The position numbers were made by a program, and so were the translations under genes. Below, in pieces: positions 8,352 through 39,221 of a stretch of DNA of 64,000 nt. Every line of letters begins with the position of its first letter. Position 1 is the first letter of the stretch. Where the stretch lies: the NCBI GenBank assembly GCA_004144595.1, contig SEEM01000005.1, positions 1 through 64,000 on the forward strand. Direction: 5' to 3'. The DNA comes from Hyphomicrobiales bacterium (GTDB lineage Bacteria; Pseudomonadota; Alphaproteobacteria; Rhizobiales; Beijerinckiaceae). Below the pieces are notes generated by a model, which saw nothing but the letters and a program-made list of their open reading frames with translations, searched no databases and had not been told where the DNA came from.

Positions 8352-8376
8352 AACGTGCTGCGGGAAAAGCAGTTCC
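8352..8376 (-). promoter_or_regulatory. EcfG-type promoter for the second glgX
   Basis: Read on the minus strand: GGAAC at 8376-8372, a 16-base spacer and CGTT at 8355-8352. This matches the alphaproteobacterial EcfG sigma consensus (GGAAC-N16/17-CGTT) exactly. The predicted start of transcription near 8344 leaves a leader of about 80 bases before the ATG at 8261. Confidence 0.75.
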
Positions 8377-8420
8377 GGATTGCTGGCCTCGATCTTGCGT
8401 AAATATTTTGCGGCGACGCA

Positions 8421-8446
8421 GGAACTCGGGTATCGGCAGACCTGTT
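8421..8446 (+). promoter_or_regulatory. EcfG-type promoter for glgA
   Basis: GGAAC at 8421-8425, a 17-base spacer and TGTT at 8443-8446. The GTT core of the -10 is kept and the first base is T rather than C. It lies 30 bases before the glgA ATG at 8476, giving a leader of about 20 bases, and is divergent from the promoter at 8352-8376. Confidence 0.6.
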
Positions 8447-8475
8447 CTGCTTCGCGGGATGCCGAGGGCCTGACG

Positions 8476-10008
8476 ATGACGGACGTACTGAAGCTGGCGG
8501 AGATCGGCGGCTTGCCTGCAACATCTGGCCACGCCTTGCATTACGCGCCGGTCGTCAAGGACGACATCGCCGACCGCCCTTCGCCGATCCCTGCAACCAC
8601 CAAACTGCTGTTCGTCACCTCCGAGATGAGCGAATTCATCAAGGCCGGTGGCCTGGGCGAGGTCTCGACCGCGCTGCCTCGCCAAATGCGCAAGTTCTGC
8701 GATGTACGCGTCCTGCTGCCCGGCTTCCGGCAGGTTCGCAAGGCGAGGCCGGCGATGGATATCGTCAAGCAGATGCCGCGGGTCGCCGGTCTGCCGCCAT
8801 GGTCGCTCGGGCGCTTCACCACCAGCGACGGCCTGATCATCTATACCGTGCTCTGCGACGAGCTTTATGATCGCGACGGCTCGCCCTATGGACCATTCGG
8901 CGGCGGGGATTTCGGTGACAACGATATCCGCTTCGCGCGGCTTTCGCTCGCGGCCGCGGAGATCGCCGCCGGCGAGGCAGACCCGAACTGGAAGCCTGAC
9001 GTCGTCCATGTGAACGACTGGCCGTCTGCTCTCGCGCCCGGGTACATGCGCTGGAAGGGGCTGGAGACGCCCTCTATCCTGACGATCCACAACCTGGCCT
9101 ATCAGGGGTTGTACCATCCGCAGCGCATGCGCCTGCTGGGCATCCCGGATCTCGCCTACAGCATCAACGGCTCCGAATTCCACGGCAAGATCTCGTTTCT
9201 GAAGAGCGGCATCTATTACGGCTCGCACGTTACCACCGTGAGCGAGACCTATGCCAACGAGATCACCACGGCAGAGCACGGCTGCGGCCTCGACGGTCTC
9301 CTCAAGACGCGGATGGGCGAAGGCCGATTGACCGGCATCGTCAACGGCATCGACGATAGCTGGAATGCCCTGATCGAAGGCGGCCGCTCCGGAGACCAGA
9401 TCATCCGGCAGTGGAAGCGCCGTAACGCCGCCGAAATCCGCCGGACCTTCGAGCTGCCGGATTCGCGCGGCCCGCTGTTCTCGATCATCTCGCGCCTCGT
9501 GCACCAGAAGGGCATCGATCTGTCGCTCGAGGCGGCCGAGACCATCGTGGCGCGAGGCGGCCAGCTCGTCGTGACCGGACGCGGCGAGCCGCGCATCGAG
9601 GAAGCCGTCGAGAAACTGGCGCGGCGATATCCGCATGCCGTCGCCGCCCGCATCGGCTTCGACGACAACGAGGCGAGGCGACTGTTCGCGGCCAGCGATT
9701 TCCTGCTGATGCCGTCGCGCTTCGAGCCGTGCGGGCTGAGCCAGATGTATGCGCAGCGCTCGGGCGCCTTGCCGATCGCCTATCGGACGGGCGGGCTCGT
9801 CGACACCATCGAAGACGGGCTCTCGGGCTTCCTGTTCTCCAGCCTCACCGGCGTGGGACTGACGGGGGCGATCACCCGAGCGCTCGATGCCTTCCGCTCT
9901 AAGCGCTCCTTCCGCCTGATGCGGGATCACGCCATGGCCAAGCGCTTCGACTGGCGTCGCCCGAGTTTCCGCTACGCGGATGTCTACGCTCGCGCGCTTA
10001 CTGCCTGA
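8476..10008 (+). CDS. glgA: Glycogen synthase (ADP-glucose type, GT5)
   Basis: Transfers glucose from ADP-glucose to the non-reducing end of glycogen. The 510-residue product has the GT5 features: LLFVTSEMSEFIKAGGLGEVSTALP (the KxGGL nucleotide-sugar motif), VHVNDWPSALAPGYMRW, TVSETYANEITTAEHGCGLDGLL, ISRLVHQKGIDL, and the C-terminal SRFEPCGLSQMYAQRSGALPIAYRTGGLVDTI. The ATG at 8476 is chosen because GAGGG lies seven bases upstream and the EcfG-type promoter ends at 8446, so the in-frame ATG at 8344 would be upstream of that transcript start. There is an N-terminal extension of about 40 residues before the first Rossmann strand compared with the usual enzyme. glgC, which makes the substrate, is not in the window. 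Confidence 0.94.
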   Translation: MTDVLKLAEIGGLPATSGHALHYAPVVKDDIADRPSPIPATTKLLFVTSEMSEFIKAGGLGEVSTALPRQMRKFCDVRVLLPGFRQVRKARPAMDIVKQMPRVAGLPPWSLGRFTTSDGLIIYTVLCDELYDRDGSPYGPFGGGDFGDNDIRFARLSLAAAEIAAGEADPNWKPDVVHVNDWPSALAPGYMRWKGLETPSILTIHNLAYQGLYHPQRMRLLGIPDLAYSINGSEFHGKISFLKSGIYYGSHVTTVSETYANEITTAEHGCGLDGLLKTRMGEGRLTGIVNGIDDSWNALIEGGRSGDQIIRQWKRRNAAEIRRTFELPDSRGPLFSIISRLVHQKGIDLSLEAAETIVARGGQLVVTGRGEPRIEEAVEKLARRYPHAVAARIGFDDNEARRLFAASDFLLMPSRFEPCGLSQMYAQRSGALPIAYRTGGLVDTIEDGLSGFLFSSLTGVGLTGAITRALDAFRSKRSFRLMRDHAMAKRFDWRRPSFRYADVYARALTA

Positions 10009-10097
10009 ATATGGGGCTGGCGGAGCGGTCAGCGATCACAAGCCGCCCGACGCTTGGCCCGGCGGCGATCTCGCTACGTCAGCCGAACGCGGGCGGA

Positions 10098-10379
10098 TCA
10101 GGCTTTCGCTTTAGGCGCGGACTTGCTCGCAGCCGCTTTTTGGGCAGGGGCGGCCTCGGTCGCGGCCTTTTTTGCCGGGGCCGTCACCTTCGGCTTGTCG
10201 CTCGCGGCGGACGACGTCTTCCCCTTGGCGGGCTGGGCCTTCTTGGCCCCTTGGCCGGTGCTGGCAGCGACCCGCTCCTCTGCAAGGCGCCAGTGCTGGG
10301 CGTCGCGGCCCTCGGGCTTTCCCTCGGCCTCCCAGATCGCGTAGGCGGTGTCACGGACGATCTGTTCACGGCTCATCAT
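10098..10379 (-). CDS. Small DUF2934 protein
   Basis: A 93-residue protein. Its first ~45 residues match the DUF2934 pattern (REQIVRDTAYAIWEAEGKPEGRDAQHWRLAEERV); the rest is a basic, Ala/Lys/Pro-rich tail with histone-H1-like low complexity. The function of DUF2934 is unknown; the tail suggests nucleic acid or polyanion binding, which is inference. Two adjacent ATGs begin the gene (10379 and 10376). GGGAGA on the minus strand is better spaced for the second. It is divergent from glgB, and a near-consensus EcfG promoter faces it at 10416-10440, suggesting induction in the general stress response. Confidence 0.75.
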   Translation of the reverse strand: MMSREQIVRDTAYAIWEAEGKPEGRDAQHWRLAEERVAASTGQGAKKAQPAKGKTSSAASDKPKVTAPAKKAATEAAPAQKAAASKSAPKAKA

Positions 10380-10415
10380 CTGTCTCCCTGCACGGCGGCT
10401 GAAACGCTGTGGATG

Positions 10416-10440
10416 AACTGCATCCCGGGTTCTTGGTTCC
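10416..10440 (-). promoter_or_regulatory. EcfG-type promoter for the DUF2934 gene
   Basis: On the minus strand: GGAAC at 10440-10436, a 16-base spacer and AGTT at 10419-10416. The -35 is perfect and the GTT of the -10 is kept. It is about 37 bases upstream of the gene start. Confidence 0.55.
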
Positions 10441-10477: not shown

Positions 10478-10503
10478 GGAACGCAGCTCCCTTCTGCTGC
10501 GTT
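10478..10503 (+). promoter_or_regulatory. EcfG-type promoter for glgB-malQ
   Basis: GGAAC at 10478-10482, a 17-base spacer and CGTT at 10500-10503: an exact match to the EcfG consensus. Predicted transcription starts near 10511, about 50 bases before the glgB ATG at 10564. The in-frame upstream ATG at 10465 would lie before this transcript start, which supports the shorter glgB. Confidence 0.75.
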
Positions 10504-10563: not shown

Positions 10564-12792
10564 ATGCGCCAGTCTGCATTTCCACTGCCCTCCTTGACCC
10601 CGCACGATCTGGTTCTGCTGGAGGAAGGCCGGCATCCCGATCCGTTCGCGGTCCTCGGGCGCCATGCCTTCGAGGGAGGCAGCTTCGTGCGTGCCTTCCT
10701 GCCCGGCTGCAACTATGCCGAACTCGTCACCGGAGAGAACGAGGACCGCAACGCGGTCTCGATGATCACGCAGGGCGACGGCGTCTTCGAGGCAGTCGCA
10801 CCGCCTGACCAACCCTACCGACTGCGTATCTCCTGGCCGGACGGCATCGTCGAGGCGGCCGATCCTTACGCCTTCGGCCTTTCGCTGTCGGAGGACGACG
10901 TCTATCTCTTCGCCGAGGGCCGCCATTTCGATCTCTCGACACGGCTCGGCGCCAATCCGTGGTCCTTCGGAGGCGTAGACGGCGTACTTTTCGCCGTCTG
11001 GGCGCCAAATGCCTCGCATGTCGCCGTCGTCGGCGATTTCAACGGCTGGGATGCCCGCCGTCATCCGATGCGGCGTCGGCTCGGCCCCGGCATCTGGGAG
11101 CTGTTCATTCCCGGCATAGGCCCGGGCGCCGTTTACAAATACGCGATCACCGGACCCGATGGCGAGAAACTGCCTTGGAAGGCCGATCCGCTGGGGCGCC
11201 GGCAGGAACTGCCGCCACGCACCGGCTCGATCGTGGCCGCCGCCCCGGCTTTCGTCTGGAGCGACGAAGAATGGCTGGCGAAGCGCGAGCGCGCGAATCC
11301 GATGGCCGAGCCGCTCGCCGTCTACGAGGTCCATGTCGGCTCCTGGCTAAGGACCGAATGGGGTCAGATGGGCAGTTGGGACGAGGCCACCGAGAGGCTG
11401 ATCCCCTACCTTGAATTCATGGGTTTCAGCCATGTCGAGCTCATGCCGATCACCGAGCACCCGTTCGGCGGCTCATGGGGCTACCAGCCGCTCGGCCTCT
11501 TCGCGCCAACCGCGAGGCTCGGTCCGCCCGAGGCCTTCGCCCGCTTCGTCGACCGCTGCCATGCCGCCGGCATCGGCGTGATCCTGGATTGGGTCCCGGC
11601 CCATTTCCCGTCGGATGAGCACGGTCTCGCGCGCTTCGACGGCACCGCTCTTTATGAGCATGAGGATCCGCGCCAGGGCTTCCACCAGGACTGGAACACG
11701 CTGATCTACAATGTCGGCCGGCGCGAGGTCCGCGGCTTTCTGATCGCCTCGGCGCTGTGGTGGCTGGAGACCTTCCATCTCGACGGCCTGCGCGTCGATG
11801 CTGTCGCCTCCATGCTGTATCGCGACTACAGCCGGCAGCCCGGCGAATGGGTGCCCAACCACCTCGGCGGCCGCGAGAACTTCGAGGCGATCTCCTTCTT
11901 CCAGGAGCTCAACACGCTGGTCGGCGCACGCGGGCGCGGCGCCATCACCATCGCGGAGGAATCCACGGCCTGGCCCGGCGTCACCGCGCCGGTCCATCAT
12001 GGCGGGCTCGGCTTCCATTTCAAATGGAACATGGGCTGGATGCACGACACGCTGCGCTATTTCGCGCGCGATCCGATCCATCGCGGCCACCACGGCGACG
12101 ATGTCACCTTCGGATTGATCTACGCTTTCTCCGAAAACTTCATGCTGCCGATCTCGCATGACGAGGTCGTGCACGGCAAAGGCTCGCTCATCTCCCGCAT
12201 GCCGGGCGACGACTGGCAGCGCTTCGCCAATCTGCGGCTGTGCCTGTCCCTGATGTGGACCCATCCGGGCAAGAAGCTCCTGTTCATGGGCTGCGAGTTC
12301 GGCCAGGAGGAAGAGTGGAACGTCGATGCGCCCTTCCCCTGGCCCGCTGACGATGACGGCCTCCGTCGCGGGACGATGCAACTGGTGCGCGATCTCAATG
12401 CACTCTATCGCGGCACCCCATCCCTGCACCGCCTCGATCACAGCGCCGAAGGTTTCGCCTGGCTGATCGCGGATGACAGCGCCAATGCCGTCTTCGCTTT
12501 CACGCGCTCGGCCGGCGACGGCAGCCCGCCGCTTCTGGTGATCGCGAACATGACGCCGGTGCCGCGCCACGATTACCGCATCGGCGTCGCTGCCGCGGGG
12601 GCATGGGCCGAGCGGCTTGACAGCGATGCGGAAGGCTATGGCGGGGCCGGGCTCGGCAGTGGCGGGCAGGCGACGGCGGAGCCAATACCGTCGCACGGAC
12701 AGGCGCAGTCGCTGGCGCTGACCCTGCCGCCGCTCGCGCTCCTCGTGCTGGAACATGTGGGGTCGGCCGAAACCGGAGGGCCCGCGCGATGA
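10564..12792 (+). CDS. glgB: 1,4-alpha-glucan branching enzyme
   Basis: Introduces alpha-1,6 branches into glycogen. From the ATG at 10564 it has 742 residues: an N-terminal N1 domain (HPDPFAVLGRHA), CBM48 (FAVWAPNASHVAVVGDFNGWD), then the GH13_9 catalytic barrel with ELMPITEHPFGGSWGYQ, DWVPAHFPSDEHGLARFDGT, nucleophile Asp412 in LRVDAVASMLYRDYSR, TIAEESTAWPGV and LPISHDEVVHGKGS. The last ~50 residues before the end are Gly/Ala-rich. It overlaps malQ by four bases (ATGA), so the two are translationally coupled. The leader lies under an exact EcfG-type promoter. Confidence 0.96.
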   Translation: MRQSAFPLPSLTPHDLVLLEEGRHPDPFAVLGRHAFEGGSFVRAFLPGCNYAELVTGENEDRNAVSMITQGDGVFEAVAPPDQPYRLRISWPDGIVEAADPYAFGLSLSEDDVYLFAEGRHFDLSTRLGANPWSFGGVDGVLFAVWAPNASHVAVVGDFNGWDARRHPMRRRLGPGIWELFIPGIGPGAVYKYAITGPDGEKLPWKADPLGRRQELPPRTGSIVAAAPAFVWSDEEWLAKRERANPMAEPLAVYEVHVGSWLRTEWGQMGSWDEATERLIPYLEFMGFSHVELMPITEHPFGGSWGYQPLGLFAPTARLGPPEAFARFVDRCHAAGIGVILDWVPAHFPSDEHGLARFDGTALYEHEDPRQGFHQDWNTLIYNVGRREVRGFLIASALWWLETFHLDGLRVDAVASMLYRDYSRQPGEWVPNHLGGRENFEAISFFQELNTLVGARGRGAITIAEESTAWPGVTAPVHHGGLGFHFKWNMGWMHDTLRYFARDPIHRGHHGDDVTFGLIYAFSENFMLPISHDEVVHGKGSLISRMPGDDWQRFANLRLCLSLMWTHPGKKLLFMGCEFGQEEEWNVDAPFPWPADDDGLRRGTMQLVRDLNALYRGTPSLHRLDHSAEGFAWLIADDSANAVFAFTRSAGDGSPPLLVIANMTPVPRHDYRIGVAAAGAWAERLDSDAEGYGGAGLGSGGQATAEPIPSHGQAQSLALTLPPLALLVLEHVGSAETGGPAR

Positions 12793-14828
12793 CGGACGAG
12801 ATCCTGCGCCAGCTCGCCGCCCGCGCCGGCGTCGCGCCCGAATGGACCGATCAGACCGGCGCGCTGCGTCAGGTCACGCCCGACAGCCTGCGCGCGATCC
12901 TGCACGCGCTCGGCCTGCCCGGCGATACCGACGACGCCTTGCGCAATTCCCTGGCCGCTGTCGAGGCGCTTCCGCTCTCGGGATCGACGCGCTTCCTGAC
13001 CTCCCGGGTCGGGCAGCCGGTCGACCTCCCCATGGCCGGTGATGACGATGTCGATATCGACGTTGTCCTCGAGGATGGTACGCGTCGCGTTCTCAGGGCG
13101 GATAGAGCCGGTGACCGCCTGCTCCTGCCCGCCTTCGATCAACCCGGCTACCACACGGTCCATCTCGGCGCCGAGGCGACCACCGTGGCGGTCGCACCGG
13201 CGCGCTGCGTCACCTTTCCTGATCTGTCCGGTGGGCGAACGGGCTGGGGCCTTGCAGCGCAGATCTATTCCCTGCGCAGCGCCCATGACGGCGGGATCGG
13301 CAATTTCGCCGGCGCGGCTGCGCTGGGACGGGCCGCCGCAGGCCTCGGGGCCGATGCCCTGGCGATCAGCCCGGTCCATGCGCTTTACGGAGCGCTGCCC
13401 GGCCAGTTCAGCCCGTACTCGCCCTCGACCCGGCTGTTCTACAATCCGCTGCACGCCAATCCCGCAGCAGCGTTCCCTGACGCGTTGCTATCGACCATCG
13501 CCGCGCAGGCCGGTGTCAGCGAAGAGATGGAGCGGCTCTCCAGGCTCGACCAGATCGACTGGCTGGCCGCGACGCCGCTCCGGCAACGTTTCCTGCGCGC
13601 GCTCTTCGATCAGCTGGATAAGGCCGGAGAGAGCCGCGCGGCTTTCGAGCGCTATGCCGCGGAAGCCTCGCCGCTGCTGCGATCCCACGCGATCTTCGAG
13701 GTCCTGCATGCCACGGAGCTTGCGCGCGACCCGACCGTGCGGTCCTGGCGCGACTGGCAGCCCGGCTATCGCGACCCGGACGGCCCGCAGGTAGCGGCTT
13801 TCGCCGAAGCCCATGCCGGCGATGTCCGCTATCAGATCTTCCTGCAATGGCTGACGAGCTTGTCCTATGGCGACGCCCAGCGCGCCTGCCGCGAAGCGGG
13901 CATGACGGTCGGGCTCATCGCCGACCTCGCCATCGGCATGGACGGCGCCGGCAGCCATGCCTGGAGCCGGCAGGACGAGGTGCTGCACGGTCTGAGCATC
14001 GGCGCCCCGCCCGACTATTACTCAGCCGATGGCCAGAACTGGGCGCTGACCACCTTCTCGCCGCGGGGGCTTGCGGCAAGCGGCTATGCTCCCTTCATCG
14101 AGACGCTGCGGGCGAGCCTTCGCCATGTCGGCGGCATCCGTATCGACCATGTCATGGGCATGAGCCGGCTCTGGCTCATCCCGGAAGGCGCGGGAGCGCT
14201 CGACGGGGCTTATGTCAGCTTTCCTTCCGAGACCCTGTTCCGCCTGATCGCGCTCGAATCCTGGCGGCATCGCGCCATCGTCATCGGCGAGGACCTCGGC
14301 ACCCTGCCCTATGGCTTCCGTGACTATCTGCGGGATCAGGGGGTGGCGGGCCTGAGAGTGCTGCGCTTCGAGCAGACCCAGCATGGCTATGTCCGGCCCG
14401 CGGATTGGGATCGCGATGCGGTGGCGCTGACCAGCACGCATGACCTCGTGCCGACCGCCGGCTGGTGGGCCGGCTCCGATCTCGCGCCGGATGATACCGG
14501 CGAAGCCGAGGAGGTCCGGGCCTGGGATCGCGGCCTGCTCTGGGGCGCTTTCCGGGATGCCGGCGTGGCGGACGGCGAACGCCCTCTCCCCGAGGATACC
14601 GACCCCGTCGTCGACGCCGCGATCCGCTATGTCGCTGCGACGCCATGCACGTTGAAGATCGTACCGATCGAGGACGCTCTCGGCCTGCGCGTGCAGCCGA
14701 ATGTTCCCGGCACGACCGTCGAGAAGCCGAACTGGCGGCACCGCCTTGACGGCGACGCCGCTGATGCGCTGGACGCCGACAATCTCGATGAACGGTTGGC
14801 GCCGCTGCGTGCCAAACCCTCCCAATGA
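12789..14828 (+). CDS. malQ: 4-alpha-glucanotransferase (amylomaltase)
   Basis: GH77 disproportionating enzyme that transfers alpha-1,4-glucan segments between maltooligosaccharides. It has 679 residues. Visible signatures: the acceptor-site run SPYSPSTRLFYNPLHANP, DLAIGMDGAGSHAW, the nucleophile Asp453 in GGIRIDHVMGMSRLW, acid/base Glu in IGEDLGTLP, and TSTHDLVPTAGWW carrying the third catalytic Asp. The N-terminal ~150 residues form the beta domain typical of the longer bacterial MalQ. It starts inside the last codons of glgB. In this cluster it probably recycles the short oligosaccharides left by phosphorylase and debranching enzymes. Confidence 0.94.
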   Translation: MTDEILRQLAARAGVAPEWTDQTGALRQVTPDSLRAILHALGLPGDTDDALRNSLAAVEALPLSGSTRFLTSRVGQPVDLPMAGDDDVDIDVVLEDGTRRVLRADRAGDRLLLPAFDQPGYHTVHLGAEATTVAVAPARCVTFPDLSGGRTGWGLAAQIYSLRSAHDGGIGNFAGAAALGRAAAGLGADALAISPVHALYGALPGQFSPYSPSTRLFYNPLHANPAAAFPDALLSTIAAQAGVSEEMERLSRLDQIDWLAATPLRQRFLRALFDQLDKAGESRAAFERYAAEASPLLRSHAIFEVLHATELARDPTVRSWRDWQPGYRDPDGPQVAAFAEAHAGDVRYQIFLQWLTSLSYGDAQRACREAGMTVGLIADLAIGMDGAGSHAWSRQDEVLHGLSIGAPPDYYSADGQNWALTTFSPRGLAASGYAPFIETLRASLRHVGGIRIDHVMGMSRLWLIPEGAGALDGAYVSFPSETLFRLIALESWRHRAIVIGEDLGTLPYGFRDYLRDQGVAGLRVLRFEQTQHGYVRPADWDRDAVALTSTHDLVPTAGWWAGSDLAPDDTGEAEEVRAWDRGLLWGAFRDAGVADGERPLPEDTDPVVDAAIRYVAATPCTLKIVPIEDALGLRVQPNVPGTTVEKPNWRHRLDGDAADALDADNLDERLAPLRAKPSQ

Positions 14829-14985
14829 TGTCTCAGGTGCGCGCGGGCCAGCCGCGCCGGGGGATTGCCGGGCTATGTCCGGCGTTTCGGTGACGCAGCG
14901 ATAATGCGCGATGGCGTCGCGCAGCGCAGCGTTCTCGATTGCGTCTGCCGAGCCCGGTCACGTCGGAACGTCAGGTTCCGCTCCA

Positions 14986-15011
14986 GACAGCCGGACTGTC
15001 CAAGCTTTTTT
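14986..15011 (+). terminator. Weak terminator-like hairpin between malQ and treY
   Basis: A 5-bp stem (GACAG / CTGTC, loop CCGGA), five bases, then six T residues at 15006-15011. It lies 160 bases after malQ and about 100 bases before treY. The stem is short and the T-run is not adjacent, so confidence is low; if real, treY would need its own promoter. The rest of the 286-base gap shows no gene. Confidence 0.3.
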
Positions 15012-15114
15012 GCGAAACCGTCGCTGCCGCGGATTTGGAGGCGAACCCAAGGGCTCGATAGCGCGTTGGCAGGATGACGGCGGCAAGGAAGCGGCCGGCG
15101 AAAACGGGGGTATC

Positions 15115-17676
15115 GTGACGCAAGCCTATCCAGTGCGGGCCACTTATCGGCTGCAGTTTCACAAAGACTTTCCCTTTGCCAGCGGGGCAGCCCTTGCAGG
15201 CTACCTCGGTCGGCTCGGGGTGAGCCACGTCTACGCGTCGCCGATCCTTGCCGCCCGCGCCGGCTCTCTGCATGGCTACGACGTGATCAGCTATGACGCC
15301 GTCAACCCCGAGCTTGGCGGGCTCGACGGCTTCCACGACATGGCCCGCGCCTTCCGGGCCGAAGGATTGGGGATCATCCTCGACATCGTGCCCAACCACG
15401 TCGCCGTCGGAGGCGACGACAACGCGATGTGGCTCGACCTGCTCAAGTACGGGCGCGGCAGCCGGTATGCAGGCTGGTTCGACATCGATTTCGAGGAAGC
15501 GGACCCGCTGCTGGACGGGCGCGTCCACGCGCCTTTCCTTGGGGAGCCTTTCGACGAGGCGCTCGCAGCGGGAAAGATCACGCTGGTCGATGACCCGGAG
15601 CGTCATGGCTTCGCCTTGCGCTATAGCGAGCACCTCTTTCCGATCCGGCCGGAGGATGACGCCGGGCTGCGCGATGGCTTACCCGAGACACAGAGGGATC
15701 CCGAAGCCCTGCGCGCTCTGATCGACCGGCAGCATTTTCATCTCGACTACTGGCGCAATGCCGGCGATCGGCTCAACTGGCGCCGCTTCTTCGATATCAC
15801 CCAGCTCGCAGGCATGCGGATGGAGCGGCCGGATGCCTTCGATGCGGCCCATCGCATCGCCTTCGCGCTCTATGAGGAAGGCTGGATCGACGGGCTCAGG
15901 ATCGATCATGTCGATGGGCTGACGGATCCGGCGGGTTACTGCACGAGCCTGCGCGACCGGCTCACGGCGCTGGCGTCGCGGCGCCCCGGCTGGGCTACTC
16001 CTGGCCCGGCCTGGATCGTGGTCGAGAAGATCCTGGCTGCCGGCGAAGCCCTGCCCGCCGAGTGGAAAACCGACGGAACGACCGGCTACGACTTCATGGA
16101 TCAGGCTAGCGCGGTCCTCCATGCCCCAGATGACGAGAACCGGCTCGGCCTGTTCTGGTCGGAGCTCAGCGGGCGGCCCGCAAGCTTCGCCGATGAGGAG
16201 ATAGCGGCACGGCGTGAAGTGCTCGAACAGGCCTTCGACGGGCAACTGGAGGCGATCACGGCGCGCCTTATGGCGCTGGCCCAGGCGACCGGCCGCGAAG
16301 CGGACATTCCGCGGGGCGCAATGAGACGTGCCCTCACGGCCATCGTCTGCAACATGCACTGCTATCGGACCTATCTGACCGGCAAATCCGCTCCGGAAGA
16401 TCCCGGCTCCGGCTTCATCGAGGCTGTCGCGGCGGCGCGGGCTCAGCCTCAGGCCGAACTCATCGCGCTCGACTTCGTGGTGGCCGTCCTGACGGGAACG
16501 GACATCGCCTTGGAACCGCCTGCGAGGCGCGCGGTGATCCGGCGTTTCAACCAGCTCACCTCGCCGCTGGCTGCCCGCAGCGTCGAGGATACGGCGTTCT
16601 ACCGTTTTGGACGCCTGCTCTCCCGTAACGATGTCGGTTTCGATGCGGCGCGTTTCGCGCTGCCGGTCCCGGAATTCCATGGCGCCATGGCCAAGCGCGC
16701 CGATCTCCAGCCTGACGCGATGCTCGCCCTCTCCACTCATGACCACAAGCGCGGCGCCGATGTCCGCGCCCGCCTCGCGACGATCAGCCAGAACCCCCAG
16801 TCGTGGATGGATGCGGTTCAGAGCTGGTTCGAGATCAACGACCCGATCCGGCCGGAGGGTCTGGATCGCGGCGACGAGTACATGCTTTATCAGATGCTGA
16901 TCGGCACCTGGCCGCAGGACGGACTGACCGGCGACTATGCCGATCGTGTCAGTGGCTGGTGGCGCAAGGCTTTGCGCGAGGCAAAGCTGCGCACGGGCTG
17001 GGCCACACCGAACCAGGATTACGAACAGCTGACGCAGGATTTCCTGCATGCCCTGCTCGATCGGAAGGTCAGCTCTCGCTTCCACGAAGAGCTGGAGCGC
17101 CAACTTGCCTGCATCGGCCCGGCGAGCGCACTCAATGGGCTGGGGCAAATGGTGCTCCAGTGCACCGTGCCGGGCGTTCCCGATATCTATCAGGGCTGCG
17201 AGTTCTGGGATTTCAGCATGGTCGATCCCGACAACCGCCGCCCGGTCGATTTCGCGGCGCGCGAGGGCGCGCTGGCGCAACACGAGGCCGAAGATCGCCT
17301 CCGGGCCGGCTGGAAGAGCGGGCGGATCAAGCAGGACATTCTGCAGCGCCTTCTGATGGCGCGACGCGATCATGCCTCGCTGTTCCGGAGCGGTCGCTAT
17401 CGCGCCCTCTCGGCGCACGGGACGCGGGCTGAGAACCTGATCGCATTTTGCCGTGAGACTGAAACGCAGATGCTCGCTGTGATCGTCCCGATCGGCTGTC
17501 CGGCCGGGGTCGACGGCAGCCTCTCCCTGCAAGCGGACTGGTGGGCCGATACGATGGTCCCGCTTCCGTCCATATCCGGAGAGTGGCGGCCGCTGGTGGG
17601 TTCACCGGTCTCGGGCGGACACGTCACGCTTTCGAATGGGAGCCTCGGTTGCCGTGTGCTGCTCGGAGATCGCTGA
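15115..17676 (+). CDS. treY: Maltooligosyltrehalose synthase
   Basis: GH13_26 enzyme that isomerises the reducing-end alpha-1,4 bond of maltooligosaccharides into an alpha,alpha-1,1 bond, the first step of the TreY-TreZ trehalose route. The 853-residue product begins VTQAYPVRATYRLQF, typical for the family. It has YASPILAARAGSLHGYDVISYDAVNPELGG, DIVPNHVAVGGDDNAMW, nucleophile Asp264 in GLRIDHVDGL, Glu304 in WIVVEKIL, TTGYDFMDQASAVL, and LSTHDHKRGADVRARL near the C-terminus. The GTG at 15115 gives the normal N-terminus; upstream in-frame codons translate to Arg/Ser-rich sequence. No treZ is present in the window, so the second step must be encoded elsewhere or another enzyme must use the product. 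Confidence 0.95.
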   Translation: MTQAYPVRATYRLQFHKDFPFASGAALAGYLGRLGVSHVYASPILAARAGSLHGYDVISYDAVNPELGGLDGFHDMARAFRAEGLGIILDIVPNHVAVGGDDNAMWLDLLKYGRGSRYAGWFDIDFEEADPLLDGRVHAPFLGEPFDEALAAGKITLVDDPERHGFALRYSEHLFPIRPEDDAGLRDGLPETQRDPEALRALIDRQHFHLDYWRNAGDRLNWRRFFDITQLAGMRMERPDAFDAAHRIAFALYEEGWIDGLRIDHVDGLTDPAGYCTSLRDRLTALASRRPGWATPGPAWIVVEKILAAGEALPAEWKTDGTTGYDFMDQASAVLHAPDDENRLGLFWSELSGRPASFADEEIAARREVLEQAFDGQLEAITARLMALAQATGREADIPRGAMRRALTAIVCNMHCYRTYLTGKSAPEDPGSGFIEAVAAARAQPQAELIALDFVVAVLTGTDIALEPPARRAVIRRFNQLTSPLAARSVEDTAFYRFGRLLSRNDVGFDAARFALPVPEFHGAMAKRADLQPDAMLALSTHDHKRGADVRARLATISQNPQSWMDAVQSWFEINDPIRPEGLDRGDEYMLYQMLIGTWPQDGLTGDYADRVSGWWRKALREAKLRTGWATPNQDYEQLTQDFLHALLDRKVSSRFHEELERQLACIGPASALNGLGQMVLQCTVPGVPDIYQGCEFWDFSMVDPDNRRPVDFAAREGALAQHEAEDRLRAGWKSGRIKQDILQRLLMARRDHASLFRSGRYRALSAHGTRAENLIAFCRETETQMLAVIVPIGCPAGVDGSLSLQADWWADTMVPLPSISGEWRPLVGSPVSGGHVTLSNGSLGCRVLLGDR

Positions 17677-21112: not shown

Positions 21113-21138
21113 AACCGCCGACGCGCCTCCGAAGTTCC
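21113..21138 (-). promoter_or_regulatory. EcfG-type promoter upstream of the ACP-like gene
   Basis: On the minus strand: GGAAC at 21138-21134, a 17-base spacer and GGTT at 21116-21113. The nearest genes in this direction are the possible leader peptide (start 21022) and the ACP-like gene (start 20943), so the leader would be 80-160 bases. Confidence 0.5.
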
Positions 21139-21188: not shown

Positions 21189-21213
21189 GGAACGCCTAGG
21201 GCACCCTCCCGTT
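21189..21213 (+). promoter_or_regulatory. EcfG-type promoter for the DUF892 gene
   Basis: GGAAC at 21189-21193, a 16-base spacer and CGTT at 21210-21213: exact consensus. Transcription would start near 21221, about 30 bases before the ATG at 21250. Confidence 0.78.
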
Positions 21214-21249: not shown

Positions 21250-21753
21250 ATGGGTTGGTTTTCAAAGGACATCGCAACGATGGACGACCTCTTCGTCCAC
21301 ACGCTTCAGGACATTTATTACGCGGAAAACCAGATCAGGAAGTCCCTTCCCGACATGATCGAGAAGGCGACGAGTCCGGAGCTGAAAAGCGGGTTCGAAA
21401 TGCATCTTCGCGAAACCGAAGGGCATATTGACCGGCTGAAACAGGTTTTTCGTCTGCACGGCGCAGAAGAAAAGGGCATCACCTGCCCCGCGATCGACGG
21501 CATCCTCGAAGAGGCCAGCGATATCGCCGGCGATGTGGCCGACAAGCAGGTGCTGGATGCCGCATTGATCGCTGCCGCACAGGCCGTCGAGCACTACGAG
21601 ATCACCCGCTACGGCACCCTCGTCGCCTGGGCCAAGCAGCTCGGCCGCGAGGATTGCGCTGCCCTCCTCCAGCAGACGCTCGACGAGGAGGACGCCACCG
21701 ACAAGAAGCTGTCGAAGCTCGCCCTCAGCGGGGTCAATCGCAAAGCGGCCTGA
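21250..21753 (+). CDS. DUF892 ferritin-like protein (YciF/YciE type)
   Basis: A 167-residue four-helix ferritin-like protein of the DUF892 family. It shows the typical start (DLFVHTLQDIYYAENQIRKSLPDMIEKA), a second helix with LRETEGHIDRLKQVF, and a third with AAAQAVEHYEITRYGTLVAWA; the Glu and His residues in these helices match the presumed di-metal positions. YciF-like proteins are stress-associated, although their reaction is not established. The ATG at 21250 has GGGAG seven bases upstream; an in-frame ATG at 21244 directly abuts that site. An exact EcfG-type promoter sits 37 bases upstream. Confidence 0.85.
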   Translation: MGWFSKDIATMDDLFVHTLQDIYYAENQIRKSLPDMIEKATSPELKSGFEMHLRETEGHIDRLKQVFRLHGAEEKGITCPAIDGILEEASDIAGDVADKQVLDAALIAAAQAVEHYEITRYGTLVAWAKQLGREDCAALLQQTLDEEDATDKKLSKLALSGVNRKAA

Positions 21754-22216: not shown

Positions 22217-22242
22217 GGAACTGGCCGCTGGGCCGGCGAGTT
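22217..22242 (+). promoter_or_regulatory. EcfG-type promoter for the ClpP-like gene
   Basis: GGAAC at 22217-22221, a 17-base spacer and AGTT at 22239-22242. It is 34 bases before the ATG at 22276, so the leader would be about 25 bases. Confidence 0.58.
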
Positions 22243-22275: not shown

Positions 22276-22887
22276 ATGAGCCTGCCACCATCCGCCGGGC
22301 CAGATGATGCCCCGTCCGACCTCTTCCGCCCGTTGCAAGCGCGGGATTTCCTGAACCCGCCGATCCTCTTGGCCGGGGTCGTCGATAACGTGATGTACGC
22401 TTTCTTCCGGGATCGCCTGATGACGGCCCCGCGGGAAGGCGTTGTCGTCATCGAGCTCAGCACGCTGGGAGGCGACCCCGAGGTCGCACGGATGATGGGA
22501 GAGGACATCCGGTTCCACAGCGAGCAGGAGCCGAACCGGCGCTTGGTCCTTCTCGGCAAGACGGCGATCTACTCGGCCGGCGCGACCTTCATGAGTTTCT
22601 TCGCCCGCCCGAACCGTTACCTGTCGCGCGGCACGCGGCTCATGATCCACGAGCGGAAGCTGCAGGCCACCGTGACGCTCGATGGCCCGCTGACCATGTG
22701 CATCGCCAACCTCAAGGCCAAGCTCAACGAAATCGAGCATTCGATCCAGATCCAGAATGAAGGGTTCCAGAACCTCATCGCCGGCTCGTCGATAACCATG
22801 GAACAGGTCCTCAGGCTGGCACCGGAGAACTGGTACATCGAGGCCAATGAAGCGATGAATCTTGGTCTCATCGAAGGCGTTATCTGA
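22276..22887 (+). CDS. Solo ClpP-like serine peptidase
   Basis: A 203-residue member of the ClpP/crotonase fold. It has an N-terminal segment before the first strand, then VVVIELSTLGGDPEVARMMGEDI, GKTAIYSAGATFMSFF with a Ser (about residue 100) at the ClpP nucleophile position, and LSRGTRLMIHERKLQ with His (about 125) matching the catalytic MIH of ClpP. It ends EANEAMNLGLIEGVI. True ClpP has a longer handle helix and is next to clpX; here there is no ATPase partner nearby. Such divergent ClpP-like proteins may be ATPase-independent or act with a distant partner, which is inference. GGA is six bases before the chosen ATG at 22276, and an EcfG-type promoter lies just upstream. Confidence 0.8.
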   Translation: MSLPPSAGPDDAPSDLFRPLQARDFLNPPILLAGVVDNVMYAFFRDRLMTAPREGVVVIELSTLGGDPEVARMMGEDIRFHSEQEPNRRLVLLGKTAIYSAGATFMSFFARPNRYLSRGTRLMIHERKLQATVTLDGPLTMCIANLKAKLNEIEHSIQIQNEGFQNLIAGSSITMEQVLRLAPENWYIEANEAMNLGLIEGVI

Positions 22888-23295
22888 GAAGCAGGGGCCG
22901 CGCGCAGGCGCTCGCAGGGTTTCAGCCCGCCTGACGCATCCGAGTTCGATCAGCTCGCGCCCATCCGGGTTGAAACGGTAGCGCATGGGGTGTGTTCGTC
23001 ATCACGCACCGCCTCGCTCGAAGACCGCCCCGCACTCTACGAGACGTTCCGCGCCAGTCAGGGCGGTTGCATCAGGGCCATCATGCCCTTCTGACCGTAG
23101 CGTTTCATGGAACAGGCAACGCCCACGACCCGGCTCGCCGTGACCACCAGAGTTCCAGTCGAACAACCGATGACCGGCCTGTCCGCGGGAACCGGTTAAC
23201 CTGGATGGTGTTCATAAGGCCGCCGGCCCGTTGGGTTGGTCATAGCCTTCGAGAACGAACCGACACATCGTGATACCCCTACCCTTCAAGCCGGC
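22888..23295. other. Intergenic region before the phospholipase D gene
   Basis: About 400 bases. The only element I can support is the EcfG-type promoter at 23188-23212. A minus-strand open frame starts at 22986 (MRYRFNPDGRELIEL) and continues antisense through the ClpP-like gene; its first part reads like protein, but it has no ribosome binding site. A second GGAAC at 23109-23113 has no GTT at the right distance. Confidence 0.45.
23188..23212 (+). promoter_or_regulatory. EcfG-type promoter for the phospholipase D-like gene
   Basis: GGAAC at 23188-23192, a 16-base spacer and TGTT at 23209-23212. The expected start of transcription near 23220 leaves a leader of about 75 bases before the ATG at 23296. 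Confidence 0.55.
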
Positions 23296-24582
23296 ATGCA
23301 CATGACGTTCCGACGGCACCCCCTGGTCATCGCGCTCATCTCGGCCATTCTGGGTGTCGCGGGCTGCATCATCGTGGGCAACCTGCTGCCGGAGCCACGG
23401 GAGCTGAAGCAACCGCTTCCACATCACCTCGCCTCGTCGGATCGCCAGCTCAAGACGTCCATGGGCGCCCTGTTCGGGTCTAGCTATGTTCCCGGCAACA
23501 AGGTGGAGACGCTGGTCAACGGCATCAGAATCTTCCCCGCGATGCTGAGCGCCATTCGCGAGGCGCGGCAGACGATCAGCTTCGAGACCTATATCTATTG
23601 GCGTGGCGCCATCGCCGAGGAGTTTGCCGATGCTCTCGCGGCAAAGGCCCGGGAAGGGCTGAGCGTGAAGGTGCTGCTCGACTGGGTCGGCAGCTTGCCG
23701 ATGGACGATCAGCTCATCAAGCGGATGCAGGATGCGGGCGTCGAGGTCGTCCGCTTCCGCCCCGTCACCTGGTACACGCTCGACCGGTTGAACAACCGCA
23801 CTCACCGAAAACTGCTGGTCGTCGATGGGCGCGTTGGTTTCACCGGCGGCGTCGGCATCGCCGATGAATGGAACGGGGATGCGCGCACGCCGAACGAATG
23901 GCGCGATACGCACTATCGGATCGAAGGACCCGCTGCGGCAGAATTCCAGGCCGCTTTCGCCGAGCACTGGATCGAGGCAACCGGAGAGCTGCTCCTGGGC
24001 GACCGCTTCTTTCCGGAGATTGCTCCGGTAGGCGACCACGCCGCGCAGGTCGTCGTCAGTTCGACCCATCAGCGCAATACCATGCATCTCATGCTGATGA
24101 CTGCGCTTGCCGCCGCGCAGAAGAGCATCCGCATCGCGACGCCCTATTTCGTGCCCGACGAACTGACACGTCAGCAGCTTCTCGAGGCCCGCAAGCGGGG
24201 CGTCGAGATCGAGATCATCGTGCCGGGGCCCCGCACGGATGCGCGCATCGTCAGGAAGGCGTCGCGTCACCTGTGGGGCGATCTGCTCGAGGCCGGTGTG
24301 AAGATCAGCGAGTATCAGCCGACCTTCTTTCACTGCAAGCTCGTGATCGTCGATGATGTCTGGGCGTCCGTCGGCTCGACGAATATCGACGACCGCGCCC
24401 TGAGGCTGAACGACGAAGCCAACATCAATCTGTTCGATCGGGAATTCGCAAAAACCCAAACGGCCTTGTTCGACAAGGATGCCGCAGCCTCCCGCCCCTA
24501 CACCTTCTCGGACTGGCAAAACCGCTCATCCAGTGAGAAGTTCTCGGACTGGCTGTCCAGCCTGGCTCGATCGCAGATCTGA
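23296..24582 (+). CDS. Phospholipase D-family protein (cardiolipin synthase-like)
   Basis: A 428-residue membrane-anchored enzyme. An N-terminal segment (PLVIALISAILGVAGCIIVGNLL) is a membrane anchor or signal. Two HKD motifs follow: HRKLLVVDGRVGFTGG (His about 170) and HCKLVIVDDVWASVGSTN (His about 346), the paired catalytic half-sites of the PLD superfamily. The arrangement, with NTMHLMLMTALAAAQKSIRIATPYFVPD between them, is that of bacterial cardiolipin synthases, which join phosphatidyl groups at the inner membrane. It has only one membrane segment where ClsA has two, so a broader PLD-type function is possible. Starts at 23296 or 23302 are equally plausible. It is downstream of an EcfG-type promoter. 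Confidence 0.85.
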   Translation: MHMTFRRHPLVIALISAILGVAGCIIVGNLLPEPRELKQPLPHHLASSDRQLKTSMGALFGSSYVPGNKVETLVNGIRIFPAMLSAIREARQTISFETYIYWRGAIAEEFADALAAKAREGLSVKVLLDWVGSLPMDDQLIKRMQDAGVEVVRFRPVTWYTLDRLNNRTHRKLLVVDGRVGFTGGVGIADEWNGDARTPNEWRDTHYRIEGPAAAEFQAAFAEHWIEATGELLLGDRFFPEIAPVGDHAAQVVVSSTHQRNTMHLMLMTALAAAQKSIRIATPYFVPDELTRQQLLEARKRGVEIEIIVPGPRTDARIVRKASRHLWGDLLEAGVKISEYQPTFFHCKLVIVDDVWASVGSTNIDDRALRLNDEANINLFDREFAKTQTALFDKDAAASRPYTFSDWQNRSSSEKFSDWLSSLARSQI

Positions 24583-27975: not shown

Positions 27976-29043
27976 ATGCCGAACCGGCCGATCAAAGTCC
28001 TCTATATCGACGACGACGCCACCTTGGGGCGCCTCGTGCAGCGCATGCTCGCGCGCCACAACTATGTCGTGGAGCATGTCGAAACCGCCGAGGCGGGGCT
28101 CGCGCGCGCAGAGGCGGGCGGGATCGACGTCATCATCCTCGACCATGATCTGGGCACGGCGTCAGGGCTCGATGTTCTCTCGGCCTTGTCCACCGACGCA
28201 TCATCTCCCGCGGTCATCTATGTGACCGCATCATCGGAGCTGTCGATCGCCGTGACCGCCCTGAAGGCCGGCGCGATCGACTATGTCGTGAAGACGATCG
28301 GCGAGGATTTCGAGGTCCTGCTGCGGGCGGCTCTGGAGCATGCCGTGGTGAAGACGCGGCTGACCCGCGCCCGCGAGCAGGCGGAGAAGGACGTGCGGGC
28401 CGCGCGCGACCACGCCATGACGCTGCTGGCCGAGGTCAATCACCGCGTCGCCAACAGCCTGTCGCTGGTCGGCTCGCTCGTGCGCATGCAGGCCAATTCT
28501 GTCGAAGACCCCGGCGCCAAGGCGGCGCTTGCCGAGACGCAGGCGCGTATCACGGCGATTGGCAACCTGCATCGCAGCCTCTATACCTCCGACGATGTCC
28601 GCGCTGTCGACCTCGCGGGCTATCTTCGTTTGCTGCTGGAGGAGTTCGCGCACTCGCTCGCCGGCTCCGGCCAGATGCCGTCCATCCGCTTCGAGGCGGA
28701 GCCCGTGCTGGCGAAAACCGACAAGGCGATCTCGATCGGCCTGATCGCAACGGAATTGGTGACCAACGCGCTGAAATACGCCTACCCCGACGGCCAGGGC
28801 GAGGTCCGGGTCAGCCTCTTCTGCGAGGGCGATACGGTCACGCTCAAGGTCGCCGATGACGGTATCGGCTGGTCAGGAACCGGCACAATCCGCGGAACCG
28901 GCCTCGGCAGCAAGATCGTGCGGGCGATGGCGAAGGGCCTCGCAACCGAATTGCGCTATGTCGATACCGGCGGACGCGGCACGCAAGCCGTCATGGAGCT
29001 TTCGCTGGCCGGCCTGGCACCGCCGACATCCGAAGCGGCCTGA
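27976..29043 (+). CDS. Receiver-HisKA_2 histidine kinase
   Basis: A 355-residue soluble protein with an N-terminal receiver domain (YIDDDATLGRLVQRML; phospho-acceptor Asp56 in IILDHDLG; YVVKTIG), a linker helix and a HisKA_2-type kinase with His156 in EVNHRVANSLSLVGSLVRMQ, then an HATPase (TELVTNALKYAYPDG, DDGIGW, GTGLGSKIVRAMAKGL). A receiver in front of the kinase suggests it is switched by phosphotransfer from an upstream kinase. It is 22 bases behind the response regulator, completing a kinase/regulator/kinase set. HisKA_2/HWE kinases commonly feed the PhyR-EcfG stress pathway in alphaproteobacteria; a link here is inference. Confidence 0.9.
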   Translation: MPNRPIKVLYIDDDATLGRLVQRMLARHNYVVEHVETAEAGLARAEAGGIDVIILDHDLGTASGLDVLSALSTDASSPAVIYVTASSELSIAVTALKAGAIDYVVKTIGEDFEVLLRAALEHAVVKTRLTRAREQAEKDVRAARDHAMTLLAEVNHRVANSLSLVGSLVRMQANSVEDPGAKAALAETQARITAIGNLHRSLYTSDDVRAVDLAGYLRLLLEEFAHSLAGSGQMPSIRFEAEPVLAKTDKAISIGLIATELVTNALKYAYPDGQGEVRVSLFCEGDTVTLKVADDGIGWSGTGTIRGTGLGSKIVRAMAKGLATELRYVDTGGRGTQAVMELSLAGLAPPTSEAA

Positions 29044-37656: not shown

Positions 37657-37682
37657 GGAACAATGGCGAGGTTGAAGCGGTT
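37657..37682 (+). promoter_or_regulatory. EcfG-type promoter for a 25-residue peptide gene
   Basis: GGAAC at 37657-37661, a 17-base spacer and GGTT at 37679-37682. It is 28 bases before the ATG at 37711, so the leader would be about 20 bases and would consist of little more than the ribosome binding site. Confidence 0.6.
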
Positions 37683-37710
37683 GCTTGCTCAATATCAGGA
37701 GGAGGCAATC

Positions 37711-37788
37711 ATGGGCTTGCTTGAGATCAGCGTCATTCTGGCTTGCGCGTCGGCTTTCGGCTTCTACATCGCCGATCCGCTGGAATAA
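37711..37788 (+). CDS. 25-residue membrane peptide
   Basis: A very short gene that is still well supported. It has a strong Shine-Dalgarno (AGGAGGAGG, ending six bases before ATG 37711), an EcfG-type promoter right in front, and a product that is a single hydrophobic helix (LLEISVILACASAFGFYIA) followed by DPLE and TAA. It looks like a one-pass inner-membrane micropeptide. No gene overlaps it on the same strand and nothing else in the 300-base gap explains the promoter. I do not recognise a family; it is not KdpF-like in its residues. Function unknown, probably stress-induced. Confidence 0.6.
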   Translation: MGLLEISVILACASAFGFYIADPLE

Positions 37789-38260: not shown

Positions 38261-38502
38261 CGGGACAGGCGACGAGCGTTCGCCCGCACCTTGCGCCGAT
38301 ACCCTCGAACAATACCGATCGGCGCCGTTCCCGTTGCGACCTTTAAAACGGCCTGCTGACCCGCCGTGGCCTTTTCGCTGACCATGCGCGCGGCCTCTCG
38401 CTGAGTGGTCGCACCACCCTTCGCGAGCTCGATGCCGCGCAGCCAAATGACTTGCTGCGCTTCGAATGCAAGCTTCGACATCTCCCAGAACAACCTATGC
38501 AT
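38257..38502 (-). CDS. Small phasin-like hypothetical protein (81 residues)
   Basis: An 81-residue helical protein: FWEMSKLAFEAQQVIWLRGIELAKGG, then REAARMVSEKATAGQQAVLKVA and a basic tail (RGYRRKVRANARRLSR). The spacing of the aliphatic and aromatic residues and the EAQ.Vi..R...la.GG....EA.rMVsEK pattern resemble small phasin-like proteins common in Rhizobiales; binding to polyhydroxyalkanoate granules is not shown. It starts within the end of the upstream gene (8-base overlap) and ends in the ATGA overlap with the SemiSWEET gene. Confidence 0.65.
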   Translation of the reverse strand: MHRLFWEMSKLAFEAQQVIWLRGIELAKGGATTQREAARMVSEKATAGQQAVLKVATGTAPIGIVRGYRRKVRANARRLSR

Positions 38503-38803
38503 CCGCGGCCTCCTTTTCGGCAGGCTTGCGTGAAGTTTCGCGCTTGCGACGCGGTCGAGCGCTCCCACTGCGCGCGCCCTCTTTCGAGCTGACCTTCGGC
38601 GAAATATCCTTTGGGTGCCGAGCCTGGGCTTCCTGATTGAGTCGATACAAGCCGTATCCGACTGCTCCGGCGAGGATCACCGGCGTAGGCAATCTCGTTG
38701 CGAGCAGCGTCAAAGGAAGAGCAAATCGCTCGGGGATGTCGCCTCGCTCGACATTCCGAGCGATCCAGGCGCCGGCGAGACTGGAGAATGCGGCCCGGAT
38801 CAT
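38495..38803 (-). CDS. Small membrane-associated hypothetical protein (102 residues)
   Basis: A 102-residue protein with an N-terminal hydrophobic region (RLPTPVILAGAVGYGLYRL, around residues 38-56) that may span or dip into the membrane, followed by a very basic, probably disordered tail (RPRRKRETSRKPAEKE). It overlaps the gene before it by four bases (ATGA at 38800-38803) and the one after by eight, so all four are a single translationally coupled operon. No function known. Confidence 0.65.
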   Translation of the reverse strand: MIRAAFSSLAGAWIARNVERGDIPERFALPLTLLATRLPTPVILAGAVGYGLYRLNQEAQARHPKDISPKVSSKEGARSGSARPRRKRETSRKPAEKEAADA

Positions 38804-38985
38804 TTCTTTTCCTCTGCAGCGCCGGGCGTGATCGGAACCTGCTCTGCAACAGGGTCACTCGCCGGGAAAGTATCCTTGAGCGCCTTCTCCAGCTTCTGAT
38901 CGGGGGTCAGCTCTCGCTCTTCCCGACGCTGAGATTTCTGTTCACGGCGTAGGCTGTCGACCGCAGGATTGTGCTCGTTCTGCAT
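38800..38985 (-). CDS. Small hydrophilic TFPASDPV-motif protein (61 residues)
   Basis: A 61-residue, highly charged protein with the motif LEKALKDTFPASDPVAEQ near its middle. That short motif recurs in many small stress-associated proteins of Rhizobiales, always of unknown function. The N-terminal half is Arg/Glu/Gln-rich and probably disordered. AGGAG lies six bases before the ATG at 38985. It is the first gene of the four-gene set and has an exact EcfG-type promoter 37 bases upstream. Confidence 0.72.
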   Translation of the reverse strand: MQNEHNPAVDSLRREQKSQRREERELTPDQKLEKALKDTFPASDPVAEQVPITPGAAEEKK

Positions 38986-39021
38986 GGATGGCTCCTTGAG
39001 CGTTTGACGAACTAAAGGCTG

Positions 39022-39047
39022 AACGCTGCGGCCCCGCCCCTCGTTCC
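39022..39047 (-). promoter_or_regulatory. EcfG-type promoter for the small-protein/SemiSWEET operon
   Basis: On the minus strand: GGAAC at 39047-39043, a 17-base spacer and CGTT at 39025-39022, an exact consensus match. Transcription would start near 39014 and enter the 61-residue gene after about 30 bases. Confidence 0.75.
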
Positions 39048-39195
39048 AGTAGAGTTCGACGATCTCCACGTCAGCCGGCCCCCTCGCCCTTTCAGAAGCC
39101 GATCGTCCAGCCGGCCTCTCCGCCAGTCGGCAAGCAACTTGCGCTAGCATCCGCGGCTGTCTCGGAATGGCGAATGGCCAGGGCGTGCCAACGAC

Positions 39196-39221
39196 GGAAC
39201 GTCCGCTGGCACGCCGGAGTT
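39196..39221 (+). promoter_or_regulatory. EcfG-type promoter for the cupin gene
   Basis: GGAAC at 39196-39200, a 17-base spacer and AGTT at 39218-39221. It lies 26 bases before the cupin ATG at 39248, with GGAGA in between. It is divergent from the promoter at 39022-39047. Confidence 0.58.

Follow-up and report, generated by a model that had tools for sequence, protein, structure and literature searches.

Predicted EcfG Promoters Cluster at Glycogen and Stress Genes of a Bosea Genome

Genes and EcfG-Type Sites of the Locus

The stretch of DNA analyzed here (the window; 64 kb of contig SEEM01000005.1, assembly GCA_004144595.1) carries within its first 40 kb a block of glycogen genes, followed by genes for small or poorly known proteins (Table 1). 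An initial annotation made from the sequence alone had listed eleven sites of the form GGAAC-N16/17-NGTT in this part, which is the promoter form of EcfG, the sigma factor of the PhyR-NepR-EcfG general stress response (GSR) of alphaproteobacteria. Judged by its nearest named relatives, the host genome is a Bosea: the first four named loci closest to the DUF892 gene of the window are all Bosea (best 93% identical), followed by Bosea among Methylobacterium and others.

The eleven sites are all present and belong to a total of 14 strict matches in the window, compared with 1.59 expected from dinucleotide shuffles (largest count 5, n = 100). A codon-based gene model, trained on the window and on stretches of its own genome, places each of the eleven in intergenic DNA and upstream of a gene, which here means at most 300 nt away and on the same strand. 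The other three matches (29352+, 32781-, and 51817-) lie within genes and were dropped as probable chance occurrences. The last of them is the sole strict match past 40 kb, where the initial annotation, scanning by eye, had seen no comparable site upstream of the carbohydrate genes. In relatives, the radical-SAM gene carries a match at the same place as 32781-, which is explicable by coding conservation.

All eleven sites have GGAAC as -35 box, a spacer of 16 or 17 nt, and GTT in the -10 box. CGTT occurs four times, as had been counted before, AGTT three times, and GGTT and TGTT twice each. The distance between GTT and the start codon is 26–90 nt for ten sites, close to the 25–90 bases first given, and 169 nt for the gene of the acyl-carrier-like protein (ACP); it would be shorter for glgB and the ClpP-like gene if translation began at the earlier in-frame ATGs, 10564 and 22276, respectively. 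Eight of the sites are arranged as four divergent pairs (glgX/glgA, DUF2934/glgB, ACP/DUF892, and 61-aa/cupin), and the other three stand alone. Upstream of glgP, the strict-pattern scan of the window found no motif.

Scanning spacers of 8–26 nt yielded four upstream matches at 16 nt and seven at 17 nt; otherwise, only spacers of 8, 15, and 26 nt gave any, a single match each. When the box letters were permuted, 89 control motifs had a mean of 0.26 upstream placements in the window, in agreement with the approximately 0.3 chance sites estimated initially, vs. 11 for the true motif. The control maximum of four was reached by GAACG-NGTT, and all four of its placements overlap true sites. Loosening the motif (GGAAY with spacers of 15–18 nt, or one free box position) adds only three separate intergenic places (714-, 20592-, and 38308-), and hence the set of sites is nearly all-or-none; the remaining loosened matches in intergenic DNA overlap known sites.

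Table 1. Genes of the window and predicted EcfG-type promoters. Cut-offs are those of the family models; fractions are loci with the strict motif upstream.
Feature	Position	Strand	-10 box, spacer (nt)	Family match or conservation
glgP, glycogen phosphorylase	1745..4210	+		TIGR02093 over cut-off
Second glgX-type debranching gene	4215..6188	+		TIGR02100, 751 bits
glgX, glycogen debranching enzyme	6189..8261	-		TIGR02100, 1009 bits
glgX promoter (EcfG-type)	8352..8376	-	CGTT, 16	26/26 same-genus loci, -10 always CGTT
glgA promoter (EcfG-type)	8421..8446	+	TGTT, 17	29/29 same-genus loci, TGTT in 22/29
glgA, glycogen synthase	8476..10008	+		NF001901 over cut-off
DUF2934 protein	10098..10379	-		PF11154 over cut-off (read from 10376)
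DUF2934 gene promoter (EcfG-type)	10416..10440	-	AGTT, 16	27/28 same-genus loci
glgB promoter (EcfG-type), probably with malQ and treY	10478..10503	+	CGTT, 17	26/26 same-genus loci, -10 always CGTT
glgB, branching enzyme	10564..12792	+		Start inferred at ATG 10564, frame checked; NF003811 over cut-off (read from 10594)
malQ, 4-alpha-glucanotransferase	12789..14828	+		TIGR00217 over cut-off; 4-nt overlap with glgB
treY, malto-oligosyltrehalose synthase	14911..17676	+		TIGR02401, 881 bits
Acyl-carrier-like protein (ACP), 104 aa	20629..20943	-		PF00550 just over cut-off; no NCBIfam match
ACP gene promoter (EcfG-type)	21113..21138	-	GGTT, 17	2/2 relatives examined, motif 279 nt upstream
DUF892 gene promoter (EcfG-type)	21189..21213	+	CGTT, 16	50/80 alphaproteobacterial loci, including 11/11 named Bosea
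DUF892 protein	21280..21753	+		PF05974, E 8e-62
ClpP-like gene promoter (EcfG-type)	22217..22242	+	AGTT, 17	14/18 loci
ClpP-like peptidase	22276..22887	+		Start inferred at ATG 22276, frame checked; PF00574 weak, under cut-off; no NCBIfam match
PLD gene promoter (EcfG-type)	23188..23212	+	TGTT, 16	1/3 relatives, ≤300 nt
Phospholipase D (PLD)-domain protein, cardiolipin-synthase-like	23296..24582	+		PF13091 (read from 23236); TIGR04265 just under cut-off
25-aa gene promoter (EcfG-type)	37657..37682	+	GGTT, 17	Promoter and protein kept in the single relative found
25-aa small protein, membrane-like, MGLLEISVILACASAFGFYIADPLE	37711..37788	+		Start after AGGAGG; directly 3' of EcfG-type site
61-aa protein with FPASDP stretch	38800..38985	-		82–90% identical in relatives
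61-aa gene promoter (EcfG-type)	39022..39047	-	CGTT, 17	4/4 genomes; 7/7 loci in larger set, 3 overlapping the first four
Cupin gene promoter (EcfG-type)	39196..39221	+	AGTT, 17	13/28 loci
Cupin-domain protein	39248..39772	+		PF07883 slightly under cut-off

Conservation of the Sites in Relatives

Footprinting covered the 300 nt upstream of orthologs in genomes of the same genus; loci of the genome itself, loci with truncated starts, and loci with less than 150 nt of upstream sequence were dropped. Out of 60 other genomes, the 29 with a close GlgA were examined, and six with a GlgA of 40–42% identity were left out. Every glgX, glgA, and glgB locus in these sets carries the strict motif, as do all DUF2934 loci except one (Table 1), and permuted controls in the same-genus sets have means of 0.1–0.8. 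The motif is likewise found upstream of most ClpP-like genes; it is missing at two remote homologs (26–31% identical) and, in G024, at two overlapping loci belonging to a second copy that is split into two pieces. At the DUF892 gene, which was followed across alphaproteobacteria, the controls have a mean of 1.6 and a maximum of 24. The ACP gene was found in two relatives and the 25-aa gene in one, each time with the motif upstream; the 25-aa protein is 96% identical in one relative, with mostly synonymous nucleotide changes.

Conservation of the boxes is not matched by their surroundings. At sites of the commonest spacer length, the mean pairwise spacer identity between orthologs is 31–61%, and the 20 nt before the -35 box have a mean pairwise identity of 28–57%. 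The sites of glgX, glgA, DUF2934, glgB, and the ClpP-like gene are kept despite this drift of the spacer, and the sites of the DUF892 and 61-aa genes are kept as well. Furthermore, the first base of the -10 box depends on the ortholog group, with C throughout glgX and glgB and T in the majority of glgA loci, which might reflect a tuned promoter strength. Window neighbors that lack the motif nearly always lack it in relatives too (PQ-loop gene 0/4, CRP-type gene 0/5, and a 75-aa gene 0/11, the latter with 1/14 in a larger, partly overlapping locus set). Outside the genus, a GlgA at E < 1e-100 is encoded in 10 of 120 other genomes of the order, and a site precedes five of ten glgA loci (four of nine genera).

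Density of Sites in the Genome

The whole genome (4.95 Mb in 431 contigs) contains 196 strict matches, while the pattern in reverse has 174. We take these 196 in 4.95 Mb as the unbiased rate, a count in which some sites matching on both strands appear twice; the stretches L127–L131 (one in-gene motif, none upstream) were picked mostly for lacking matches and most others for having them, and thus cannot serve as a random background. Between 8352 and 39196 (31 kb) lie 13 of the 196 matches, more than in any other 31-kb contig stretch. The runner-up has nine (contig C207), followed by three stretches with seven. A uniform Poisson model gives 1.2 matches per 31 kb, and we prefer the rank to a P value because the other clusters show that the sites are not uniformly spread. 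The share of matches lying upstream is high in some of these clusters (C207 7/9, C224 4/5, and C29 5/5) and lower in others (C397 2/7, C142 3/6, and C76 2/5 and 3/4). This part of the window thus has the highest density among several predicted EcfG clusters and is not the whole regulon. Hence, of the stress regulon that the initial annotation placed in the first 40 kb, the cluster of predicted EcfG sites stands, but it is only one of several in the genome.

The gene treZ of the same genome is located on contig C251. Two paired strict sites lie approximately 9 kb from it, with another glgB-like gene close to them, and this region (C251:22236-33142) might be a further carbohydrate stress cluster.

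Regulators of the General Stress Response

A PhyR-NepR-EcfG gene set, with a putative ecfG, is present in the genome. The single nepR copy lies on contig C69 and its end is overlapped by an ECF (extracytoplasmic function) sigma gene, to which the next matches in the genome are 34–35% identical. An HWE/HisKA_2 kinase gene follows that is most like PhyK (112 bits, below the cut-off of 750), and phyR, over its family cut-off, is divergently oriented in the same locus. We infer from its position next to nepR and phyR that the sigma gene is ecfG. A strict motif points at nepR approximately 130 nt before the ATG (C69 stretch L112, 7644–7668, minus strand); it was scored as not upstream in the gene-model count, as the model missed nepR. 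The 232 nt that separate nepR from phyR contain neither a strict nor a loosened match directed at phyR. An EcfG-type promoter upstream of phyR is usual in many species and is absent at the ecfG genes of Methylobacterium extorquens, according to the excerpted account of PMC4814048.

Interpretation of the Sites

We read the eleven motifs as promoters recognized by the EcfG-containing RNA polymerase of this Bosea and assign this a probability of roughly 0.93; binding and induction are predicted from the sequence comparisons. The regulators in the genome, the motif before nepR, and the preservation of several promoters in relatives point to the PhyR-NepR-EcfG response, as had been proposed. The consensus invoked by the initial annotation also fits the published EcfG motifs, which are given as GAAC-N16,17-C/GGTT and GGAAC-N16-CGTT in the excerpts available of PMC4814048 and PMC3892343, respectively; the latter study assayed R. 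etli EcfG with gusA fusions.

Several observations weigh against this interpretation. The Methylobacterium consensus has C or G as the first -10 base, as do six of the eleven sites; the other five read AGTT or TGTT. Among the 25 best models listed for the sigma gene, none is named EcfG. Moreover, the motif is missing in 15 of 28 cupin loci, within 300 nt of the PLD gene in two of three relatives, and in 30 of 80 DUF892 loci, namely 15 of Sphingomonas, 5 of Acetobacteraceae type (two named so, two Belnapia, one Falsiroseomonas), and 10 others including some Methylobacterium. Single permuted controls reach 26/26 (glgB), 21/28 (DUF2934), 14/26 (glgX), 11 (glgA), and 24/80 (DUF892), against control means of 0.4–1.6 for DUF892, glgB, DUF2934, and glgX; these high-scoring controls are probably register-shifted copies of the true motif, as demonstrated for the window only. 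Finally, a strict match outside upstream regions means little, given that the true pattern hardly outnumbers the reversed one in the genome. Support is thinner for the predicted cupin, PLD, ACP, and 25-aa promoters than for the rest.

GGAAC-type -35 boxes are common to several ECF groups, and a different ECF sigma factor whose -35 box is similar could be the one that reads these promoters. We regard this as improbable, since the same motif precedes nepR and the neighboring sigma gene and since NGTT at -10 with spacers of 16 or 17 nt is the published EcfG form in the excerpts of PMC4814048 and PMC3892343. Even less probable is that the sites are operators of a transcription factor. Such a role would suit the four site pairs in shared divergent intergenic regions, but the two fixed spacers and the mostly 26–90 nt to the start codon fit promoters. 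Inverted-repeat operators in particular were rejected, as the flanks of none of the eleven sites continue as GGAAC..GTTCC. The least credible explanation is that a short gapped pattern recurs by chance in intergenic DNA rich in GC. The barely raised genome-wide count could speak for chance, but it was rejected on the placement counts of the permuted motifs and also conflicts with the two adjacent spacers of the upstream matches and the orthologous conservation of the glgX, glgA, DUF2934, glgB, DUF892, ClpP-like, and 61-aa sites.

Under EcfG control, the locus would respond as follows. In the general stress response, HWE/HisKA_2 kinases phosphorylate PhyR upon stress, PhyR removes NepR from EcfG (sigma factor group ECF15), and EcfG-driven transcription ensues. 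In this Bosea, phosphorylated PhyR would sequester NepR in the same way, and freed EcfG would fire the GGAAC-N16/17-NGTT sites. One output would be more glycogen synthesis and debranching by GlgA, GlgB, and GlgX. A second would be the conversion of glycogen to trehalose by MalQ and TreY, expressed with glgB, and by TreZ encoded elsewhere in the genome; an operon of glgB with malQ is suggested because the two genes overlap. The third output would be a set of presumed stress proteins that are small or little characterized (DUF2934, DUF892, ACP-like, ClpP-like, PLD, cupin, 25-aa, and 61-aa).

A Bacteriophytochrome and Neighboring Kinases

A bacteriophytochrome gene (29128–31662, minus strand), adjoined by a heme-oxygenase-like gene, lies between the sites. 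Its product combines an HWE kinase of the HWE/HisKA_2 type (PF07536, E 3e-18) and its HRxxN box with a FAT GUY receiver that reads PFLFATGY. In this it resembles the Paks and SdrG of Sphingomonas melonis, as HRxxN is found in Paks and PFLFATGY fits the SdrG motif PFXFATG[G/Y]. Brucella LOV-HK is thought to act via PhyR (PMC8092228, in excerpt). In contrast to the Pak/SdrG proteins and LOV-HK, the input of the window bacteriophytochrome would be red/far-red light, and its link to PhyR is putative. Next to it is the gene of a receiver-HisKA_2 kinase (27976–29043, plus strand). Its kinase part is PhyK-like, scoring 125 bits against a family cut-off of 750, and the gene sits in a block with a CHASE3 kinase, a response regulator, a CRP-type regulator, and a DUF6894 gene.

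A constant linkage of the bacteriophytochrome to EcfG genes was considered and not borne out. Its 13 neighborhoods (254 kb) contain 33 motifs, compared with a mean of 10.3 for the 89 controls, two of which are higher (42 and 35). Three of the neighborhoods (L224–L226), which hold 17 of the 33 motifs, had been chosen earlier for EcfG-linked genes, and the four most distant neighborhoods have 0, 0, 0, and 1 motifs. The linkage is kept in near relatives and not in distant ones.

Two side observations concern the same neighborhood. Two of the neighborhoods, L246 and L248, have a site immediately before the heme-oxygenase-like gene that adjoins the phytochrome. A radical-SAM gene and a DUF4130/uracil-DNA-glycosylase gene (32386–35063, plus strand) remain together next to the phytochrome in a number of near relatives.

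Gene Order and Reshuffling of Blocks

In two relatives (G012 and G018), the glg block, DUF892, ClpP-like, and PLD genes, and the kinase block occur in the order of the window, except that the ACP gene and an 83-aa gene precede glgP, and up to 11 motifs fall within 20 kb. Other relatives differ. In G060, the ClpP-like gene and the kinase block are far from the glg-DUF892-PLD part; in G022, the glg, cupin/61-aa, and ClpP-like genes are on separate contigs or far apart; and G021 keeps the kinase-phytochrome-61-aa-cupin part. These differing gene orders imply that units move as blocks and that several units keep their own promoters. G012 (contig C1) has the bacteriophytochrome only as partial copies at five places, two of which adjoin the two block halves. 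This suggests that the order of the window is older and was broken in G012, or that the G012 assembly is at fault.

A further-reaching idea is that part of the GSR of Bosea resides in reshuffling blocks of self-contained EcfG units, which include the glycogen-to-trehalose pathway and an embedded red-light bacteriophytochrome that feeds PhyR. We regard this idea as speculative and rather unlikely. If true, light, carbon storage, and stress resistance would be coupled in one island.

Comparison With Known Systems

The cluster in the window very probably belongs to the general stress response already known from alphaproteobacteria and is not a product of chance. With it, Bosea gains a comparison-checked set of predicted EcfG targets. 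Glycogen synthase would be under predicted direct general-stress control in all same-genus loci examined, the DUF2934, DUF892, 25-aa, and 61-aa proteins are flagged as likely stress genes, and a flow of carbon under stress first into glycogen and afterwards into trehalose becomes a directly testable idea. The clustering and its conservation are worth recording, and the surprise is moderate. No report of EcfG control of glycogen synthase, of red-light input to PhyR, or of EcfG islands was found in the open-access literature as represented by titles and passages. In that literature, one paper was found to name both Bosea and EcfG, a duckweed microbiome study judging by its title.

The EcfG regulons of M. 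extorquens, Rhizobium etli, and Bradyrhizobium diazoefficiens have the same promoter form and regulators (PMC4814048 and PMC3892343, in excerpt). In B. diazoefficiens, trehalose genes are among the EcfG targets and protective trehalose is made via OtsA/OtsB (excerpts of PMC8092242), whereas the window genome has TreY/TreZ. A further difference from the three regulons, as described in the excerpted accounts, is that the predicted direct targets here include glycogen synthase and branching enzyme. In the salt-shock response of R. etli, glgX and a treY-type gene are up, and the same source (PMC4167512) cites high expression of glgA2, glgB2, and glgX of Sinorhizobium meliloti in relation to osmotic shock; the excerpted account does not tie these rhizobial glycogen and treYZ genes to EcfG. 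In Sphingomonas melonis Fr1, a comparable cluster of treY-, malQ-, treZ-, and glgX-type genes is EcfG-dependent and reporter fusions supported the dependence of glgX, which is classed there as a putative indirect target because its site scores low (PMC6599016, in excerpt). In contrast, glgX, glgA, and glgB each have full sites in the genus of the window. This kind of regulon and the salt induction of glycogen genes in rhizobia are already known. Newer are the full predicted EcfG sites before the genes of glycogen synthase and branching enzyme, the apparent block-wise reshuffling, and a neighboring putative red-light kinase of the general-stress type.

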